A DNA stretch of 35,256 bases from Thermoproteaceae archaeon (GCA_020833025.1 JAJHRB010000008.1:1-35256); one strand, 5' to 3'; shown: positions 3,101 through 13,190, counted from the stretch's first letter. Numbers and translations are program-made. The notes: a model not told the origin generated them from the letters alone.

Positions 3101-4567
3101 TTGCCAGGGCGATCGGTGCCCGGGGCGGTGCCCCCTCCCTCCCCGGATGAGCCGGTGGGGCGATACCCCACTGTTCTCGCCGCCCCGGGCACTGAATCTC
3201 CCAAATCGAAGGGTAAGAGAAAGCGCGCTTTGGGGGACGAAAACAAGAGGACTGTTAGGCTTAGGTTGTTGCCCAACGGCTCTCAAGAGAGGAAATTGCG
3301 AAGAATAGCCGATACCGCTGCCAAGCTGTGGAACGAATTGAACCACGCCAGGCTGGTTCAGCATAGGGAGAGTAGTGCGATTGATTTCAAGGGTACAGAG
3401 CATGAGTTCTACCACAGGTATAAGAGTGTGTTGGGTGTGAATGCTGGCCAGGTGATTAACCTAAATAATTGGATGTGGAAATCGTTCTTTGAGTTGTCTA
3501 GGCTGTATAAACAAGGCGAGCTACCGAAATTCATGGGTAAGCCATCGCCACCAGGCTTCTGGAAGGACAGGTTACTGGGCAGGAGGGAGCTGAGAGTCCT
3601 CGTGAGGAATGACAGGTACTACATTGAGCCGATCAACAACGGCGAGGGCTACCTAGTCCTAAAGGACTGGGGTTTGAGGATTAGGTATGCTGGCAGAATC
3701 AAGTGGAGTGGAAAGCAGGGCACGCTAGTGATAAAGTACGAGGGTGGCAGGTGGTTCGCCTATGTGCCAATCACCGTTGGGGAGAAACCCGCCAGATCTA
3801 ACCCGAAAGGCTACGTGAGGGGCATCCACGAGAAAATACAAATTGAGAAGCCTAAAGGCAACAACAAGGCCTTTATCGACGTTGGCTTGAACAACTTGTT
3901 CGCGGTGGCGTTTAGTCATACCAATGCGGCTATCTTGATTAAGGGCTCAACAATTAAGGCCGAGTACTACTGGTGGAAGCGTGAAATCAGGACGTATCAG
4001 GCAATTAGGGATTGGCTCAAACACCGTGGTTTTGAGCTATGGAAGAAGTACCACGCACTCTACATGCACGCAGTTTACAAGAGGAGGGAAAGACTTAGGC
4101 ACTACTATAGGACGGCAGTTAGGTTCCTGACAGAGACACTCCACGAAATGGGCGTTGATGAGGTATTCGTTGGTTACCCATACCTGGTGAGCCAGGACAA
4201 CGGTAATGAGTACAACACGAACATTTGGTGGTACGCTAAGGTAATAAAATGGCTCGGCGAGGTGCTGCAAGAGTACGGAATCAAACTCAACGTGGTGAGC
4301 GAGCACGGAACAAGCAAGCAGTGCTCCATATGCAATGCGGAGCACGAGAACGGTAGGGTTAAGCGTGGACTATATGTATGCCCAGTAACGGGTATAAAAA
4401 TTAACGCCGACATAAACGCAGCAAGAAACATTGCAAGGAGGGTAGGTTACGAAGTACCAATACCAAGGAAGATACTGAGCTACATAGTAACAAGTAACGG
4501 AGTAAAACCAATAACCCCCAAAGAGGGGGTAACGGTCGAGACCCCCACGATGGAAACCCCGCCCTAA
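3101..4567 (+). CDS. tnpB: TnpB (IS605 OrfB family), atypical active site
   Basis: Up to 488 aa from TTG 3101; GTG 3116 or TTG 3230 are also possible starts, and family similarity begins near residue 48 (NKRTVRLRLLPN). TnpB proteins are RNA-guided RuvC-type nucleases of IS200/IS605 elements and ancestors of Cas12. Seen here: the N-terminal helical/OrfB region, RuvC-I AFIDVGLNNLF with Asp260, and RuvC-III INADINAARNI with Asp437. At the RuvC-II position, where a Glu is expected, the sequence is VFVGYPY with Gly358. The zinc ribbon has Cys408, Cys411 and Cys427, but the fourth ligand is Thr430 (CPVTG). Other crenarchaeal relatives are known to carry GYP here, so it may be a lineage variant; Glu residues just downstream (GNEYN) could substitute. 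Whether it cuts DNA cannot be judged from sequence. Confidence 0.85.
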   Translation: MPGRSVPGAVPPPSPDEPVGRYPTVLAAPGTESPKSKGKRKRALGDENKRTVRLRLLPNGSQERKLRRIADTAAKLWNELNHARLVQHRESSAIDFKGTEHEFYHRYKSVLGVNAGQVINLNNWMWKSFFELSRLYKQGELPKFMGKPSPPGFWKDRLLGRRELRVLVRNDRYYIEPINNGEGYLVLKDWGLRIRYAGRIKWSGKQGTLVIKYEGGRWFAYVPITVGEKPARSNPKGYVRGIHEKIQIEKPKGNNKAFIDVGLNNLFAVAFSHTNAAILIKGSTIKAEYYWWKREIRTYQAIRDWLKHRGFELWKKYHALYMHAVYKRRERLRHYYRTAVRFLTETLHEMGVDEVFVGYPYLVSQDNGNEYNTNIWWYAKVIKWLGEVLQEYGIKLNVVSEHGTSKQCSICNAEHENGRVKRGLYVCPVTGIKINADINAARNIARRVGYEVPIPRKILSYIVTSNGVKPITPKEGVTVETPTMETPP

Positions 4568-5163: not shown

Positions 5164-5302
5164 CGGCGCCGTTAGCCGCGCGCCGGTGCAACGCAAAGTG
5201 TTAATACTCCCCGGCATGTAGGAGCGTGGGAGTGCGCGCGCCCGGCTGCGCGAGACGGCTACCGCGCATTGCGCTGTCTGCGTGCCCCCGCGCGTGTGAG
5301 CC

Positions 5303-6640
5303 ATGGCGTGGGAGGTAGTAGAGGCCGCCCTCGTCTCCTGCATTCTCGTCGGCTTCGTGGCGTTCGCGCTGATCTACGCGACACCCCTGCAAGGGCCTGC
5401 CGCGTACACCCCGCCCCAGCAGCCGCAGCTGATGAACCTGGCGCAGCAGGCGCTTGATCGCGTTGTGCTCGTCAACGGCAGGGTTTTCGCGAGGGATGGG
5501 GGCAGGTGGGCCGTCGCGGATCTCGCGCTCTCCGCGCCGCGCCCTCTCTACCAGCCGCAGATAGACGAGACGAAGCTCTCCCTCCTGCAGGCCCTCGCGG
5601 ACGCGGGGCCCGCCGGGCCCCTGTGCGCGATCAACCAGAAGGCGTTTGTCGACGAGACCGGGATAGAGAGGGCAATCCTTGTAGGCTTCGGCGTCTTGAG
5701 ACCGGCCAGCACGTCCGCGCATTTCGACTACGCCCGCATTCTCAGGAATTTCTTCGGCGGGGACTGGGATAAGTACGATATAGAGCTGGTAATAAAGCCG
5801 CTTGTTAACCTAACCATTTGTCCGAACGTGAGGGTTGCGGGCGTCGACATTACGCGGAGAGACCCCGTGTGCAGCAACGTGCCGCGGGGCAGGGTGTTTG
5901 TCAGGTCTACCGCCGGCGGCAGGGTGGTGGTTACCGGCATGCGTTGCGAAGTGAATGTTGGATGCGACGTCTTCTCGTACGACCTGAGCCTGACCTATGC
6001 AAACGGCGTGTGGCAAGCAGAGGTGCCGCTGCCTCCATCTGCGTACGCCGGGCTGGGCGACACGGCCGGTTTGGCGTTAATAGCGCAGAAGGTAGATTAC
6101 CCAAGGGCGTCTGATCTCTTTGTCTTCAACACGACTTCGCGGAGTTTAGCGTACGGCATGTACGGCCCGGACGGCAAGCTCTGGCTCCTCCACGACCACA
6201 CGGTGAGCTGCGGCACTGGCAGCACTCCGGCCCTGGGGATTAGGGAGCTCGATGTATACACTGGCGCCGGGTTCGTGACGCTTGTTAACGGTGCCGTGCT
6301 CGACCCCGGCGCCGGCGGAGGCAATGTTAAGGTAGATGCCTGCCAGTCGTGCACCAAAAACGCGAGGTGCGCTGCGTGCTGGGTCGAGCCGCCAGCTAAC
6401 GCTATTTTTGCTGTAGCGTGGGTCGAGCGCGAGAGCCAGGGCAAGAAAGACTCCGCCCCGCTCTCGGTCATGTTGCTGGTGCCGCTTGCGCCGGCGCAGC
6501 CCCGATCGGCCATCAGAATCGGCACGTGGCACCGCTGGACGCCGCGGGAGCCGGAGCTGCAGAGCGCGGTTGCCACGAGGATCGCGGACGGGCAGACGAC
6601 AACGTACCAGCTGCGGCTGGTCCTGTACAGGAGGCCGTGA
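5303..6640 (+). CDS. Pilin-like secreted protein A of the surface operon, 445 aa
   Basis: First gene of a five-gene unit. ATG 5303 is followed at once by a hydrophobic helix (residues 7-26, EAALVSCILVGFVAFALIYA) with Glu at 4 and 7. The very short leader and early Glu resemble prepilins more than Sec-cleaved proteins. The remaining 415 residues are beta-rich with several NxS/T sequons (for example NLT near residue 171), expected for an exported, N-glycosylated domain. A cluster C347-x2-C350-x5-C356-x2-C359 looks like a metal or disulfide knot; further Cys pairs occur earlier. No known enzymatic motif. The stop TGA overlaps the GTG of the next gene. Pilin-like is inferred from N-terminus and context; an ordinary membrane-anchored surface protein is the alternative. 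Confidence 0.75.
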   Translation: MAWEVVEAALVSCILVGFVAFALIYATPLQGPAAYTPPQQPQLMNLAQQALDRVVLVNGRVFARDGGRWAVADLALSAPRPLYQPQIDETKLSLLQALADAGPAGPLCAINQKAFVDETGIERAILVGFGVLRPASTSAHFDYARILRNFFGGDWDKYDIELVIKPLVNLTICPNVRVAGVDITRRDPVCSNVPRGRVFVRSTAGGRVVVTGMRCEVNVGCDVFSYDLSLTYANGVWQAEVPLPPSAYAGLGDTAGLALIAQKVDYPRASDLFVFNTTSRSLAYGMYGPDGKLWLLHDHTVSCGTGSTPALGIRELDVYTGAGFVTLVNGAVLDPGAGGGNVKVDACQSCTKNARCAACWVEPPANAIFAVAWVERESQGKKDSAPLSVMLLVPLAPAQPRSAIRIGTWHRWTPREPELQSAVATRIADGQTTTYQLRLVLYRRP

Positions 6641-7077
6641 GGTGGGTTATTGAGCTCGGCCTCTCCGCCATCGTGGTGGGCTGCATTTTCTACGCGCTGT
6701 CGGCCGCACTGCCGTCGCCCACGTACATAGCCTCAGAGCGTGAGGTCACCGCGAATGCGTACTTCGTGCTTCTGCGCCTCTCTTCAGACCCGAGCTTCAT
6801 GGCTGTGGTGGAGCGGGCCGTGTGCGGCGACCGAAGCGTGGACATAAGGGCGACGCTCGACGCGACAATCCCCGCGAGGTATTACTACAACTTTACCGTG
6901 TATCTAGACGACGTGCGGCCGCCTGCCTGCAGGGTGTGCGCCGACTGGAGCGCCAAGCTTGTGAGCGTGGCGAGGCCCAATGGCTACCGCGCCGGGAGCG
7001 TCAGCGCCGCAGCGGTCTCTGCATTACTGAGCGACGGCACTAGGGTGAGGATGGCGCTGTCTCTTGAAAGGCCGTGA
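6637..7077 (+). CDS. Pilin-like protein B of the surface operon, 146 aa
   Basis: GTG 6637 shares three bases with the previous stop (GTGA), which decides the start. The N-terminus MRWVIELGLSAIVVGCIFYALSAAL is a pilin-like hydrophobic helix with Glu at 6, directly after a short basic leader. The outer domain is about 115 residues with Cys37-type single residues replaced later by a CGDRS and a CRVCADW segment, so two or three Cys could form disulfides. One sequon (NFT) is seen. Size is like minor pilins/pseudopilins. The stop overlaps the next GTG. Confidence 0.75.
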   Translation: MRWVIELGLSAIVVGCIFYALSAALPSPTYIASEREVTANAYFVLLRLSSDPSFMAVVERAVCGDRSVDIRATLDATIPARYYYNFTVYLDDVRPPACRVCADWSAKLVSVARPNGYRAGSVSAAAVSALLSDGTRVRMALSLERP

Positions 7078-10000
7078 GGGGCCAGCTCATATTGCTGACC
7101 GCGTTGGTAGTGGCGGTGGCCGTTGCGGCCGTAATAGCCGCTCAGATGGCGCTTAACATGGGCCAGTTCTCGTCCAGCGTCAGGACGGGCTACGGCATAT
7201 ACGCCAAGGCATGGCCGGAGGCCGTCGACCTGGCGGACTCCCACGCGCTGCAGGCGGCGCTCAAGGCCGCCTCGCAGATATCGGCGGGCGCGCTCTCGTC
7301 CGGCCTCTACGCGAGCCCCGCCAAGGCCTCAAGGTGGCTGACCTACAACGCCACGTACCTCTACCTCAACAGGTCTCTGGCGGTGGTCAAGGAGAACTTC
7401 CTCCCTCTCGGCGCCCAGCTGGACTTCAGCGTCCGCGTGCGCTACTACGGCTTCAACGGCACGCTGGGCCCCTACCCGCTGGCCGCGCCGCTCGGTAGGT
7501 GGAACATCGAGCCGCTCAGAAACGGCTACATGAGCATCCAAGGCGCTGACCTATACCGGATCGTCGCGGTCTGGCAGGCCCCCGACTACGACGGCTACTA
7601 CGCGGTCACCTACGGGGCGCACGTCTCCGAGCCCGGCGCCGTGGGCGAGATCTACCACGTCGCGCTCGGCGAGTTGCTGCGGAAGCTGAGAAACGCGAAC
7701 CCAGAGCGGAGCCTCTTTGTATTCTTAGTAGACAGCCAGACGTGCAGAATGTGGCAGCTCCCCTGGTGGGCAGAGATGGCGAAATGCCCGCTTTGTCTCC
7801 TGCACGTGCGGATACCAAGCAGGTCTGAGATAGGCGCTAGCGAGCCTGTGCTGCAGGGCGGCAAGGCCCTGGAGTTGCTGGCGGTCCTCACGCCGAACTA
7901 CGTAGGCGACTCTCTACCCGTCATCAAGTCCGGTCCCTGCGCGGGCGGCAGCGTGGAAACAGAACAGGTACCGCTGAACTTTGACATAAATAACAACCCC
8001 AAGGCAGTTTTTGCGCAGACCGTCGAATACAGCGGCCCCCGCCCCAGCCAATATTCAGGTTGGCTTTTCTGGGATGCCAGCGATATAGTTCAGTGGGCTC
8101 AGTCGACGGTAAGCACGACCAGCTCTTGCTACCCGGATCACCCGGTGACAGGCGGCGTCTTGTCCGCGGGCAAGAGCGTTGTTTACGACGCGGGCTTCGG
8201 GAGGGTTGCGGAGGTGTACGCCACCTATGACGGCGGCACGAAGAACTGGGCTTTCAACTTATACACAGGACCTGTGGCTCTCCCATCTAACTGGGCGGGC
8301 TTCATGGTTGAGGCCCTAGTTAGGCCCGCAGCCACAAATACCGTGCGCCCGGCTAGGCTGGATCTTTATTTCTACTCCTCCGATCCCGCCTCGACGCATC
8401 CCATATGTGCGAACTTTCTAGGCGTCCAAGCCGTGTGGCCGGTCTTGGTGTGGTCGAGCTGGAGGGGCCACCCAAACGGCGTCTGGAACGGCCGGACTTG
8501 GGATGACTCGGGTACTGTTTATTTCCAGACGTCGTGGTACCTCTTCTCGCTTGCCGCGTCGACAAGCGTTGTGAGGTATCAGGTGTTTTCCTACAACACC
8601 ACGAGGCCTCTGAGGGTCTTAGGGACAAAGACCCTTCAGGGCAATCCGTGGGGCACCACTTGGCAGTTCTACGTAGTTCTAGGGAGTGCCATTGTGGACA
8701 GCCCAGCAAGCGATCAGCCCTGGACTGAGAGCGCGAGGTATGCCTACGTGAGGGTGAGGCCGTGGGTTGACCCTCCCCCGGCTGTCATGTTTGGCTTCAT
8801 CTCTGGCGCGCCCGCCGTTAGGCCCAGCCGTGTGGATGTCGTCGCGGAACGCTCGGCCTCAGCTATGTCTAGCATAAACCTGACCGGCAGCATAGGCCTG
8901 GCGGGCGTGAGGGACTTGGTAATACGGAGAAGCATCTCCCTCAACGTCAGCGTGTTGGAGGCAGAGGCGGTGAGGGACGGCGCCAACCAGATCGCCTACC
9001 GGTACAGGATTGTGGTGAATTCGTCAGTGCCGAGGGGCTCCCTCGCCGCCTCGCTCACTCTCTTCTACAGCTTGGGCAGTAGCTACGTGAACTCCACGTG
9101 CCCGTCGCCGCTGTGTGAGGCCAACTTAATCGAGTACCGGGGCTACTCCCGCGGCGTCGACACCGCCGTATACGACGTGACGTTTACGGTGCCGGCATGG
9201 GCGAGCCACGCGCTCATAGTGAATGTGTTCGGCACAAAGGCCGCCGTGTCTGCCGCGAGGCCCAGGCTGTACGTCTTGAGCGCGGGCACAAATGCCTACT
9301 ACTTGATAAACGAGGGCGACGGCACGGCGGCATTCGTCGTGCCGTGGCGCCAAGACGGACCTTTGATCACAGGCATAAGCCCCGACGACGCCAAGTTCGC
9401 CGGGCTCTTTCACGTCACCGACGGGAGGGATAGATGGACTGTCCTTCTGGTGCCGCCGGGCTCCGTCGTGAGGGTGGTCACCGCCTCAGCCGTTGATGAC
9501 TGGCGCCAGTACCTAGTCCCGTGGCAGGCGGAGATGCTTACCTATACAGACAGTCCGTGCCCGGATCCCAGATACGTCCGCGTGTACTTCCCGGGCAACG
9601 TGACGCTTAGACGTTACTACGTTTTACTGCCATATCAACCCTCCACGGTGCCTAACGGTCATGCATTTCTCGGCGGCAGGTGGGCTTCTCTAGCTGTCTA
9701 CAGGGATCCTGCGAATATGCTGTGGCTGAAGCTCTCAACGTCGCAGCAATTAACCAACAAGGCGGTTCTCGTGGCGCTGTGCGGGACTGGAACTAACTCA
9801 CCGCCTTCGTCGTTTTTCGACTGGTACAGCCCCACGCCGTCTGGCGGCGCCTTGGAGTTCGCGTCGCCTCCAAGCCTCTCGACCTACCCCGACGGCTACA
9901 CCGTGGCGGTGTGGCACTCCGGCCCTATGAGCGTTGCTCTCCAGAACGGCACTGACTATCCACCCTGGAACTGTTATGAAGGCAGAAGAATTGTGGGCAT

Positions 10001-10346
10001 ACAGTATACTGGAAGTGATCCCGCCTTTCTGTGGCACTTTAACGGCTTCTGTTTCGACATGCATATATGGGAGCGCGTGGGGTCCGGCACGCCGCAGATG
10101 TACGCGCTTTCTATCTCCCCGCAGCCGGTGCTGTACCAGATCTCTACGGGCACGGATGTTGGGAGCTGGTGGCTTAGGTCTTATCCAAACGTGGCGCCTG
10201 CGCTCGGCGGCAGGCCTCTGCAGTCTTTTACGCACGTTTACGGCTCCGCCGGTTTTAGCGCGGCCCTCATCCCGTTTACGTGGCCTAGGCCGTACATTTT
10301 CCTGGACTTTTCGGAGAACCCCGTCGGCCCCTACTCGACGACATGA
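7074..10346 (+). CDS. Giant pilin-like surface protein C, 1090 aa
   Basis: GTG 7074 overlaps the previous stop (GTGA). The N-terminus MRG-QLILLTALVVAVAVAAVIAAQM has the short Arg-Gly leader and hydrophobic helix of archaeal class III signal peptides (Gln rather than Glu near the site). The ectodomain of about 1060 residues is beta-rich, aromatic-rich and carries many NxS/T sequons (NATYLYLNRS, NGT, NTTR, NLT, NVS), as expected for a heavily glycosylated extracellular protein. Segments such as WAGFMVEALVRP and YAYVRVRPWVDPPPAVMFG resemble jelly-roll/LamG or DUF2341-type folds often found in adhesins and carbohydrate binders, but this is impression only. No C-terminal anchor was seen, so it should be held by the N-terminal helix. 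It is by far the largest protein here and is probably the exposed tip or functional part of the system. Confidence 0.8.
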   Translation: MRGQLILLTALVVAVAVAAVIAAQMALNMGQFSSSVRTGYGIYAKAWPEAVDLADSHALQAALKAASQISAGALSSGLYASPAKASRWLTYNATYLYLNRSLAVVKENFLPLGAQLDFSVRVRYYGFNGTLGPYPLAAPLGRWNIEPLRNGYMSIQGADLYRIVAVWQAPDYDGYYAVTYGAHVSEPGAVGEIYHVALGELLRKLRNANPERSLFVFLVDSQTCRMWQLPWWAEMAKCPLCLLHVRIPSRSEIGASEPVLQGGKALELLAVLTPNYVGDSLPVIKSGPCAGGSVETEQVPLNFDINNNPKAVFAQTVEYSGPRPSQYSGWLFWDASDIVQWAQSTVSTTSSCYPDHPVTGGVLSAGKSVVYDAGFGRVAEVYATYDGGTKNWAFNLYTGPVALPSNWAGFMVEALVRPAATNTVRPARLDLYFYSSDPASTHPICANFLGVQAVWPVLVWSSWRGHPNGVWNGRTWDDSGTVYFQTSWYLFSLAASTSVVRYQVFSYNTTRPLRVLGTKTLQGNPWGTTWQFYVVLGSAIVDSPASDQPWTESARYAYVRVRPWVDPPPAVMFGFISGAPAVRPSRVDVVAERSASAMSSINLTGSIGLAGVRDLVIRRSISLNVSVLEAEAVRDGANQIAYRYRIVVNSSVPRGSLAASLTLFYSLGSSYVNSTCPSPLCEANLIEYRGYSRGVDTAVYDVTFTVPAWASHALIVNVFGTKAAVSAARPRLYVLSAGTNAYYLINEGDGTAAFVVPWRQDGPLITGISPDDAKFAGLFHVTDGRDRWTVLLVPPGSVVRVVTASAVDDWRQYLVPWQAEMLTYTDSPCPDPRYVRVYFPGNVTLRRYYVLLPYQPSTVPNGHAFLGGRWASLAVYRDPANMLWLKLSTSQQLTNKAVLVALCGTGTNSPPSSFFDWYSPTPSGGALEFASPPSLSTYPDGYTVAVWHSGPMSVALQNGTDYPPWNCYEGRRIVGIQYTGSDPAFLWHFNGFCFDMHIWERVGSGTPQMYALSISPQPVLYQISTGTDVGSWWLRSYPNVAPALGGRPLQSFTHVYGSAGFSAALIPFTWPRPYIFLDFSENPVGPYSTT

Positions 10347-11014
10347 CGTCGCTTGAGGTTTTGATCCTCACCGCGTTCACTCTCCTGATAGTGTTCGCGG
10401 CTCTGCCGTATGTAATCGGCATGCTTCACTCCTCTCTGGCTCCGCTGGAGTACAGAACCGCGGCCGGGTACGTTTTGGCCTTTGCCGACAGCTTAGAGGC
10501 AGATTTCGGGATGGCCGGCGCGCGGAAGTACTTCAACCTGCCGAGGTTTGTCTACGGGAGCTTTGGCCCCGTCAACCGGACGTATACTCTCCAGCTGCTT
10601 GGTTGCGGGCCTCTGCAGACGTTCCGCTGGAATTCTGCGGAGCTGTGGTACAACGCGACCTATCTCGTCGGGGAGCGGAGGCTGCTGCGCGGTCTCAGCG
10701 CGGGCTTGACGGCACGGCCGCCGGACACGTTAATGGCGGTGGAGGCTCTCGAGAGCGGCATCAGGGCGTACCCGAGAGTCTTCATCGTGAGCGGCAAGGG
10801 CGAGGCCTATGTGTATATCATTAACGCCACGGTGCGCCTCTCCGGCGCTGGCACCCCGGCCTACGTGACCTACGAGATGTCCGGCTTAAGGCTGGTGGGG
10901 CCTTTCAGCTGCCGGGACCCCAAGCTCGTGGTGCCCGGCGCCCCGGCCATTCTCGGGAGCGGCGACACGAATGTATACATCGTGATCCAGAACGCTACTG
11001 TGTGGCTGAGGTGA
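10343..11014 (+). CDS. Pilin-like protein D of the surface operon, 223 aa
   Basis: ATG 10343 overlaps the previous stop (ATGA). The N-terminus MTSLEVLILTAFTLLIVFAALPYVIGM is a pilin-like helix with Glu at 5. The outer domain (about 195 residues) has sequons NRT, NAT (three times) and few Cys (LLGCGP, FSCRD), fitting an exported glycoprotein. No enzyme motif. In type II secretion and type IV pili, small sets of minor pseudopilins of differing size are co-encoded and form a tip complex; this protein would fit such a role, which remains an inference. The stop overlaps the next start. Confidence 0.75.
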   Translation: MTSLEVLILTAFTLLIVFAALPYVIGMLHSSLAPLEYRTAAGYVLAFADSLEADFGMAGARKYFNLPRFVYGSFGPVNRTYTLQLLGCGPLQTFRWNSAELWYNATYLVGERRLLRGLSAGLTARPPDTLMAVEALESGIRAYPRVFIVSGKGEAYVYIINATVRLSGAGTPAYVTYEMSGLRLVGPFSCRDPKLVVPGAPAILGSGDTNVYIVIQNATVWLR

Positions 11015-11541
11015 GGGGGGCAGTCTCGCTCGCGTCGGCAGTTCTATTCATGGCTGTCGCGGCCGCGCTGGCGGTCATCGCTGCAGTCGTGAACATGATA
11101 GCGCAGGGCGTGCTCGAGGACGACGCCCAGGCGGCCGCGCAGTCCGCGGCAGACTTCGTGGCCTCGCAGATAAGGGATGCCGTGCTGTGCGCGTCAGTGC
11201 CCGGGGTCGTTAGCGTGAGGAAGGATCTGCTCGTCCCGGGCACTTTTTACGGGTTCGACAGCGCCGCGGCGGCCGTCTGCGTGGGCAACAGGGACGGGAA
11301 CATCTACGTTAACGTGACGCTGTCCGCGGCGAGGGGCTCTGGGGTGGCTCGCGCAGCGGCGACTGCCTGGGTCTTCAACATCACGGACGGCAGGGTAGTA
11401 CTCATTGAGGGCTCCTACGCCCCGTGTCCCGGCGCGGTGCTGCCGCGGGAGTGCGTGGCCGGCAGTGCGGTGAACTTAACGCGTCCAGGCTGCGCCGCCG
11501 CAATATTTAACGGCGCAACGATATACCTGGGCCCGCCCTAG
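11011..11541 (+). CDS. Pilin-like protein E of the surface operon, 176 aa
   Basis: GTG 11011 is preferred over GTG 11002 because it gives the same GTGA overlap as the other junctions and the same MRG leader as protein C. The helix AVSLASAVLFMAVAAALAVIAAVV follows directly. An amphipathic stretch (EDDAQAAAQSAADFVASQIRDAV) continues the helix as in pilins. The outer domain has five Cys, two sequons (NVT, NLT) and a beta-rich pattern. Last gene of the unit; about 100 bp separate it from the convergent gene. Confidence 0.75.
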   Translation: MRGAVSLASAVLFMAVAAALAVIAAVVNMIAQGVLEDDAQAAAQSAADFVASQIRDAVLCASVPGVVSVRKDLLVPGTFYGFDSAAAAVCVGNRDGNIYVNVTLSAARGSGVARAAATAWVFNITDGRVVLIEGSYAPCPGAVLPRECVAGSAVNLTRPGCAAAIFNGATIYLGPP

Positions 11542-12296: not shown

Positions 12297-13190
12297 TCAG
12301 TAGTACCAGGTCAAGAAGTGCGCGTGCTCCGGCGGGTACCTTGAGAGAGAGTGCGCCTTGCACGCCTGCCTGAAGGGACACGCGGCGCACCCCGGCGACG
12401 CACGCGTGCAGACCCTGCGCCCGAAGTTCCACAGGTAATCGTCGAGAGCGAAGGGGTGAGCTCCGGCGAGCTCCGCGACGAGCCTCCACGCCCTCTTGAC
12501 CAGCTCCCTCAGCCTCACGTCCTCCTCCAGCGAGACCTCGACGCCGCTCTCAAGAAAGTCGTAGTTTATGTCGACTATCCCAAGCCTGTAGGCAACTCTC
12601 GTCAGGTGGTTGTCGACCGGCACGTCGGCCTCGTCTGCGTCCTTGAATTCGGCCAGCCCCCTCCCGTCGAGAAACTTTGCGAGCAGCAGTGCCTTCTTGC
12701 CGACGGGATCCTCGTAGGCCCTCAGGCCCCTCAGCGCCTCCCTCAGCCTCTTGATGGAGTCGAGGGGGACCAGCCTCTCGAACCCGCCGGAGAGCAGCGC
12801 CTTCCTGCCCGCGTCGCGCAGTAGGAGGACTCTCGCATTAAAGTCCCACACTCTCCTCCCGCCAATTGACAGCAAGGCCTCGGCCTCGGCCGGCGTCATC
12901 CTGGCGAGCCTCTCTGCGGTGAAGAGCCCCTTGTCGTAAGCAATTCTCCCCAGCCTGTAAAGCGCGTCCGCTCCGTGGTAGAACTCGCCGTCTATCACCC
13001 CCTCGAACGGCTCCCAGAGGCCGGTCCTGTGGTCGATCGCGACCATCGCGACGAAGTACGCGAGCTGGCTCTCAAGCGGGTCGTCGGGCGGGGGGTAGAA
13101 GCGCTGGTCCGAGTAGCTCTCGCGCCTAATCTGCAGCCCCCTCACTGCGGCCGCGACCGCCTCGGCCCTGTCAACGTCTATTGCTGGCAT
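12297..13190 (-). CDS. HhH-GPD DNA glycosylase-like protein with a 4Fe-4S loop
   Basis: 297 aa from ATG 13190; a TATA-like box centred 25 bp upstream supports the start. The C-terminus has C261-x6-C268-x2-C271-x5-C277, exactly the iron-sulfur loop spacing of endonuclease III/MutY proteins. PVGKKALLLAKFL (162-174) aligns with the helix-hairpin-helix segment GVGRKTA of Nth, putting Lys166 at the Schiff-base lysine, and PVDNHLTRVAYRLGI (191-205) matches VDTHVxRV with Asp193 as the catalytic aspartate. So a bifunctional base-excision glycosylase/AP lyase is likely. The N-terminal 110 residues (with YSDQRFYPPPDDPLESQLAYFVAMVAID) are unlike Nth and the protein is longer, so the damaged base removed is unknown, and a queuosine-salvage-like relative remains possible. 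Confidence 0.65.
   Translation of the reverse strand: MPAIDVDRAEAVAAAVRGLQIRRESYSDQRFYPPPDDPLESQLAYFVAMVAIDHRTGLWEPFEGVIDGEFYHGADALYRLGRIAYDKGLFTAERLARMTPAEAEALLSIGGRRVWDFNARVLLLRDAGRKALLSGGFERLVPLDSIKRLREALRGLRAYEDPVGKKALLLAKFLDGRGLAEFKDADEADVPVDNHLTRVAYRLGIVDINYDFLESGVEVSLEEDVRLRELVKRAWRLVAELAGAHPFALDDYLWNFGRRVCTRASPGCAACPFRQACKAHSLSRYPPEHAHFLTWYY

Follow-up and report, generated by a model that had tools for sequence, protein, structure and literature searches.

What machine do five unlike pilin-like proteins serve when their genes overlap one another end to end? The question is raised by an operon at positions 5303-11541 of a 35,256-nucleotide (nt) stretch of DNA from a Thermoproteaceae archaeon (GCA_020833025.1, JAJHRB010000008.1:1-35256), the whole of which is called the window here. 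An earlier note on this DNA had read the genes (A to E in the following, see table) as pilin-like surface proteins in a layout that it did not recognise, and had suggested an adhesive or carbohydrate-binding tip for a pilus built from parts encoded elsewhere. We consider it quite probable that A to E are the minor pilins of a type IV pilus-like machine, five subunits that cannot stand in for one another, and that they form a tip complex in which C is the adhesin. In its full archaeal form this machine would consist of an ATPase, a TadC protein and the five pilins, the motor genes being placed elsewhere in Pyrobaculum.

One-to-one conservation of the five subunits

Each window protein is orthologous to one particular pilin of the five that are encoded in ATPase/TadC loci throughout Thermoproteota. 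Within the family, the order A-B-C-D-E is retained in every Thermoproteaceae locus that was read complete (Pyrobaculum and Thermoproteus), which is more than chance; Pyrobaculum oguniense, Pyrobaculum sp. WP30, Thermoproteus sp. CP80 and UBA157 are the named carriers of the five-gene locus. In a second family of the same taxonomic order the genes run A-C-B-D-E, one case having an additional pilin ahead of D. A five-member set is seen in the Vulcanisaeta-like family. Whole-genome searches found A in 54 of the 81 genomes of the class and C in 17 of 61 relatives, and over the phylum the A profile had matches in 101 of the 349 Thermoproteota genomes, or 48 of the 147 genera. The length of C ranges from about 400 to 1240 amino acids (aa) among Thermoproteaceae, where A, B, D and E vary little, and from 244 to 1240 aa over all loci; the long Thermoproteaceae C proteins align end to end with C of the window at 30-57% identity. 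As a separate observation, a second A-type gene occurs in a Vulcanisaeta-like genome beside an ATPase and a polytopic membrane protein, with no B to E alongside (L148, 9140-10648 and 12160-13620).

In Thermofilum-like and other genomes the pilins are arranged as D-E-A-B-C, some of them directly beside an ATPase and a TadC (PF00482, E values 7e-20 and 3e-26). All 18 sampled loci have TadC-D-E-A-B-C, the ATPase being directly upstream in 15 and divergent in two (L201, L203), with none seen in the remaining one (L196). On comparing the Thermoproteaceae and Thermofilum-like subunits five by five with hhalign, the best partner was on the diagonal in 5/5 cases and the off-diagonal controls were weaker. 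The phylum-wide profiles, in which E and C were assigned by position in several of the 18 loci, also gave every best value against the window family on the diagonal (5/5; A 7.5e-22, B 4.3e-6, C 2.4e-3, D 1.4e-7 and E 1.5e-6), with alignments that extend well beyond the helix (A 365 columns, D 103, E 99 and B 87). The earlier note had allowed that the genes might separate in relatives; they remain together, and its proposal of one co-functioning set is borne out by five subunits conserved one-to-one.

Motor genes

It had also been noted that no assembly ATPase lies nearby. This stands for the window and for its contig C20, on which no secretion ATPase was found (no PF00437 match), but fails for the genome and for the Thermoproteus loci. 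Several PF00437-type ATPases are present in the same genome, one of them beside a TadC-like gene on contig C72 (505 aa and 490 aa; PF00437 E value 6e-24). Three Thermoproteus genomes encode a polytopic protein of 524 aa and a T2SSE ATPase of 495 aa within 1-3 kilobases (kb) downstream of the operon, and a fourth has the motor pair nearby in inverted orientation. The Pyrobaculum pair is found ~80-110 kb away from the operon or on a different contig. The polytopic partner has no Pfam match; it aligns over 329 columns with the TadC proteins that accompany other five-pilin sets (E value 3e-7, controls negative). Linkage to a dedicated ATPase and TadC is seen at 1-3 kb in the three Thermoproteus genomes and as adjacency in most loci of other classes. 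The ATPase appeared to be missing because the operon is split from its motor genes, and the idea of a pilus from parts encoded elsewhere held up, the ATPase and TadC-like genes being neighbours of the operon in Thermoproteus and lying on a separate contig in the present genome.

Pilin character of the subunits

Each of the five proteins has a single N-terminal hydrophobic helix as judged from sequence, with a beta-rich domain in the models of A and C, and the early glutamate reported for three of the five is present in A, B and D and absent in C and E. Canonical class III leaders are found in orthologues of A (MRG/LESIELV, MRG/MESIDML and RKG/QMSAIEAIV, the slash marking the end of the leader), C (RG/Q or KG/Q), D (MRG/LEALEVAIL in Thermoproteus and RIG/QSNIIGV, with RRGxSP in distant D proteins) and E (MRG/ISAIEAAIL in Thermoproteus), which upholds the pilin-like reading; these N-termini are not ordinary Sec signals, the outcome that the earlier note had named as contrary. 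B starts with MRW-(V/I/L)-x-EL in all Thermoproteaceae read (MKW in one), and distant B proteins start with (K/R)GQxRxxE, e.g. KGQVRVVEAV. A basic leader ending in G or A is present in window C (MRG/Q) and E (MRG/A), and in relatives of A, D and distant B. The same genome has an A24 prepilin-peptidase-like gene on contig C34. An acidic residue near mature position +5 is present in 37/37 A, 36/36 B, 21/38 D and 21/35 E proteins, and in 0/33 C proteins after the true G/Q, the one flagged case being a chance upstream GQ in an over-long translation.

In window A, B and D, +1 is not preceded by a basic leader. In D (MTSLEV) the initiator methionine is at +1 in the aligned register, and likewise in some A, B and E orthologues. 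For several of these leaderless proteins a longer form is excluded by a stop codon 1-5 codons upstream, and for the Thermoproteus A also by a promoter box 37 nt before its GTG. Phylum-wide, the helix is not preceded by any basic residue in the longest possible open reading frame (ORF) of 14/18 A, 15/18 E, 1/18 D and 5/18 C proteins, at least two of the five C cases having truncated starts in the ORF calls. It may be added that an enlarged leaderless B of 429-466 aa, starting with MMRTIEV or MIRTVEV, occurs in L191-L194, L197, L198, L202, L204, L207 and L208, whereas B elsewhere is ~150-170 aa with KGQxRxxE leaders.

Structure models of C and A

In the C model (11 sequences, predicted local distance difference test (pLDDT) score 78.6), the N-terminal helix leads through a helical neck into a series of beta domains. 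Foldseek matched the model to ERGIC-53, VIP36 and legume lectins (probability 1.0, E values ~1e-4 to 1e-3), with template modelling scores (TM-scores) to the target of up to 0.57 over part of the model and identities of ~7-12%. The top match is a phage carbohydrate esterase (6yp6), which is sugar-related and is the only enzyme among the top C matches. According to the model, C probably holds a concanavalin A (ConA)/L-type-lectin-like domain; the likeness to L-type lectins and ConA-like domains is one of predicted fold alone, with no sequence support and no Pfam match for a ConA-like domain in C. An F5/8 type C domain is present instead in one C protein of another lineage (E value 5e-11). A search of PDB sequences with the C and D profiles gave nothing significant.

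Foldseek gave no significant match for the model of A (pLDDT 83.6); the weak Ig-like or macroglobulin-type matches (best E value 1.1e-3) were not used, and transglutaminases appear among the A matches at non-significant scores only. The models of A and C are beta-sandwich surface domains, and not the unrelated enzymes that the earlier note had considered as a possible outcome. The predicted lectin-like fold of C favours a carbohydrate-binding tip, though it proves nothing.

Haloarchaeal counterparts

A tblastn search of plasmids with an ATPase from a five-pilin locus led to loci in Halobaculum and Haloferax mediterranei with the order ATPase-TadC-DUF7287-DUF7288-DUF7261(-like)-DUF7266-DUF7289. 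By profile comparison DUF7287, DUF7288, DUF7261, DUF7266 and DUF7289 pair with A, B, C, E and D, respectively, all best values lying on the diagonal (E 3.9e-8, D 9.1e-7, A 1.8e-4, C 6.2e-4 and B 0.018), so that E and D match strongly, A and C moderately (C over the helix region only) and B weakly. The five window proteins are therefore, more weakly than for Thermoproteota, orthologous to the five haloarchaeal families, a claim which draws on all five pairings taken together and on the A-B-C block common to both sides, since B and C are weak alone. Like the five-pilin loci of Thermoproteota, the loci on Haloferax mediterranei pHME505 and the Halobaculum halophilum plasmid have TadC and then five unlike pilins in overlapping or abutting genes, with the ATPase upstream. 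They differ from the window set in a C counterpart of only 314-333 aa, in leaders on all five proteins and in the last two genes being swapped. A literature search on the haloarchaeal family names found no paper.

According to the part of the 2016 census of Makarova, Koonin and Albers dealing with Haloarchaea, the pilins of some of their systems are duplicated euryarchaeal pilins and only the ATPase and TadC are crenarchaeal (PMC4858521). The pairing described above points to at least one haloarchaeal set having been acquired, or retained, in its entirety. In Haloferax volcanii, pilB1-C1 is required for full adhesion, and its operon runs into a predicted pilin gene (PMC6491452); this operon may or may not be of the present five-pilin type, and its role in adhesion is a lead for function rather than a proof. 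In Salinigranum, a 681-aa PKD-domain protein is encoded between the gene in the DUF7261 position and the fifth pilin (L164, 7571-9616), so that the giant member may differ between lineages.

Comparison with known systems

Type II secretion has five unlike pilins (GspG-H-I-J-K), the largest of which has no Glu5 and is thought to cap the tip, and type IVa pili carry a large adhesin at the tip (PilY1 with the type IVa minor pilins). C resembles GspK in being large and in having no early acidic residue, which we use as a working analogy with no claim of homology. Unlike in these systems, the motor genes here are archaeal T2SSE and TadC, and C unites a pilin helix and a giant adhesin in one chain.

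The supposed lack of precedent for the layout was not confirmed, as archaeal loci with several pilins, an ATPase and TadC are known and a fitting Thermoproteales system has been predicted (PMC4858521). The census passages on these lineages describe clade 4E pili of Thermoproteales with predicted minor pilins or adhesins, loci of Vulcanisaeta and Caldivirga that have neither ATPase nor TadC, similar Thermofilum loci, and major pilins that are mostly stand-alone (PMC4858521). The window set shares with clade 4E the same lineages and the Thermofilum loci of similar composition, which were also found here; unlike our results, the clade 4E text describes no one-to-one five-subunit set across phyla (PMC4858521). 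The lineage pattern and the exclusion of 4B and 4G loci agree with clade 4E, and going by that text the window operon is very probably the same system, so that its kind is already known; we also infer the identity of A to E with arCOG05475/05473. Membership in 4G was rejected, the 4G loci L098 and L107 carrying other pilins (MinD-type ATPase) without A to E. What appear to be new are the one-to-one five-subunit set, its haloarchaeal partners and the leaderless subunits.

Proposed mechanism and weighing of the readings

We propose that the five helices would pack in the membrane into a short tip or initiation complex. Its first and outermost member may be C, which has no early acidic residue and retains a cleavable leader (RG/Q); GspK holds the corresponding place in type II secretion. 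The ATPase of contig C72 and the TadC-like platform would then push this complex out on the filament of a separately encoded major pilin. C would display its large multi-domain beta-sandwich with the lectin-like module, A, B, D and E linking it to the shaft, and by virtue of that module the tip would bind glycans of surfaces or of neighbouring cells. Both the tip location and carbohydrate binding are inferred.

Several points weigh against this proposal. No Pfam or NCBIfam model scored above cut-off for any of the five window proteins; the sole family hint is a DUF7261-like N-terminus of C (best E value 8.5e-4 among 11 orthologues), and one D orthologue matches PF07790 below cut-off (E value 0.0049). 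A, B, D or E of several lineages have no basic leader, which makes the usual cleavage by prepilin peptidase impossible. At the sequence level the orthology of C, and that of B to its haloarchaeal partner, is weak, and it depends on position and the N-terminal motif. The clade of the 495-aa ATPase sits on a branch of ~4.6-4.8 changes per column in the ATPase trees and cannot be placed, so that the pairing of operon and motor rests on synteny. The lectin-like match is remote (E value ~1e-4, TM-score at most 0.57), and the filament, its tip and the major pilin are putative.

A short pseudopilus serving as a secretion or sensing piston in the manner of type II pseudopilins, and never becoming a long adhesive pilus, would explain some of the same observations, since the operon has, like GspG-K, five unlike pilins and no small major pilin of the abundant type, C is without the early acidic residue like GspK, and the five genes are passed on as one unit together with ATPase and TadC. 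We regard it as unlikely, because these archaea have no outer membrane to cross, no recurrent secreted-substrate genes were seen beside the loci, and a giant variable C with lectin-like or discoidin domains suits an exposed adhesin better. The proteins could instead be membrane-anchored glycoproteins like those of a surface (S-)layer, which kept the helix as an anchor and no longer enter any filament. The leaderless N-termini of many orthologues (MTSLEV, MRWVIEL, MQSIEL), the large beta-rich ectodomain of C and the separation of the Pyrobaculum operon from the motor genes would all fit, yet the acidic residue near +5 is strict in A and B, RG/Q is retained in C, the genes adjoin ATPase and TadC in Thermoproteus and phylum-wide, and the present genome retains ATPase, TadC-like and prepilin-peptidase-like genes, which together make such glycoproteins distinctly improbable. 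We give hardly any credence to an adhesin operon restricted to Thermoproteales and unrelated to the other archaeal loci, the likeness being that of generic pilin helices. Such helices do look alike and the haloarchaeal matches of B and C are weak singly, but both five-by-five comparisons are best on the diagonal, the alignments of A, D, E and B pass well beyond the helix, and the A-B-C block order is shared.

The tip complex of five minor pilins can be extended into a wider reading, which we put forward tentatively and think somewhat doubtful. Archaea would have inherited a fixed five-pilin tip complex as an independent counterpart of the type II pseudopilus tip, with C as a fast-changing giant adhesin that swaps domains of sugar-binding type and with several of the other subunits leaderless. 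The latter would bypass prepilin peptidase, as their initiator methionine is at, or at most 2 residues from, mature +1. The haloarchaeal pilins would have come with the ATPase and TadC and, in contrast to the proposal in the census passage on these systems, would not have been recruited from euryarchaeal pilins (PMC4858521).

Many archaeal pilin-like genes have no assigned partner or position; the one-to-one set gives each member an identity, predicts which is at the tip and joins five haloarchaeal families of unknown function to crenarchaeal genes, so that the question becomes testable in haloarchaea, which have genetics. If the leaderless subunits are real, they would show that signal processing is not indispensable for a pilin to join a filament. 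The putative lectin-like C is a candidate for the molecule with which a hyperthermophile sticks to surfaces or to its own kind, adhesion of hyperthermophiles being called an enigma in the census section concerned (PMC4858521).

Features of the locus and its surroundings

Table. Features of the five-gene operon, in window coordinates
Feature	Position	Strand	Description
Promoter-like box	5189-5208	+	CAACGCAAAGTGTTAATAC; upstream of operon, 114 nt before ATG 5303
Gene A	5303-6640	+	445 aa, pilin-like (MAWEVVEAALVSCILVGF); immunoglobulin (Ig)-like beta-rich ectodomain
Gene B	6637-7077	+	146 aa, pilin-like (MRWVIELGL); start GTG in GTGA overlap with A
Gene C	7074-10346	+	1090 aa, giant pilin-like (MRG/QLILLTALVV); no early acidic residue
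Putative lectin-like region of C (approximate)	8136-8798	+	residues ~355-575; placed from strand pattern, not reported by Foldseek
Gene D	10343-11014	+	223 aa, pilin-like (MTSLEVLIL); initiator methionine is mature +1 by alignment
Gene E	11011-11541	+	176 aa, pilin-like (MRG/AVSLASAVLF)

The five plus-strand genes were confirmed, with a 4-bp overlap at 4/4 junctions (GTGA, GTGA, ATGA and GTGA). The mechanical ORF list places the starts of B and E further upstream than GTG 6637 and GTG 11011, the starts that match conserved N-termini in 13-15 relatives. A CAACGCAAA box is present at 5189, and in five Thermoproteus-type relatives CAACGCAAA lies 37 nt before the start of A. Such a box stands 37 nt before the start codon in most relatives; here that distance leads to GTG 5226, which is in another frame and opens an ORF of 30 aa, the sole in-frame start of A being ATG 5303. 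The start of gene A at this ATG is not fully certain, and the mismatch comes from a leader of unusual length (77 nt), a frameshift or an assembly error. The CACCACAAAATAT box was rejected as a special regulatory motif; it precedes other genes too and is thus probably a general promoter.

Cysteines number 11 in A, 4 in B, 12 in C, 2 in D and 5 in E. The richness in NxS/T sequons claimed for all five proteins stood in a shuffle test for D (4 sites, p 0.005) and E (3 sites, p 0.015), was borderline for C (10 against 6.0 expected, p 0.067) and did not stand for A and B, which are at chance. Around the operon, an AGOG-like N-glycosylase/DNA lyase is encoded at 12297-13190 on the minus strand (PF09171, E value 3e-4, under cut-off), and an OrfB_IS605/TnpB-type gene (PF01385, PF07282) lies directly upstream at 3101-4567 on the plus strand.

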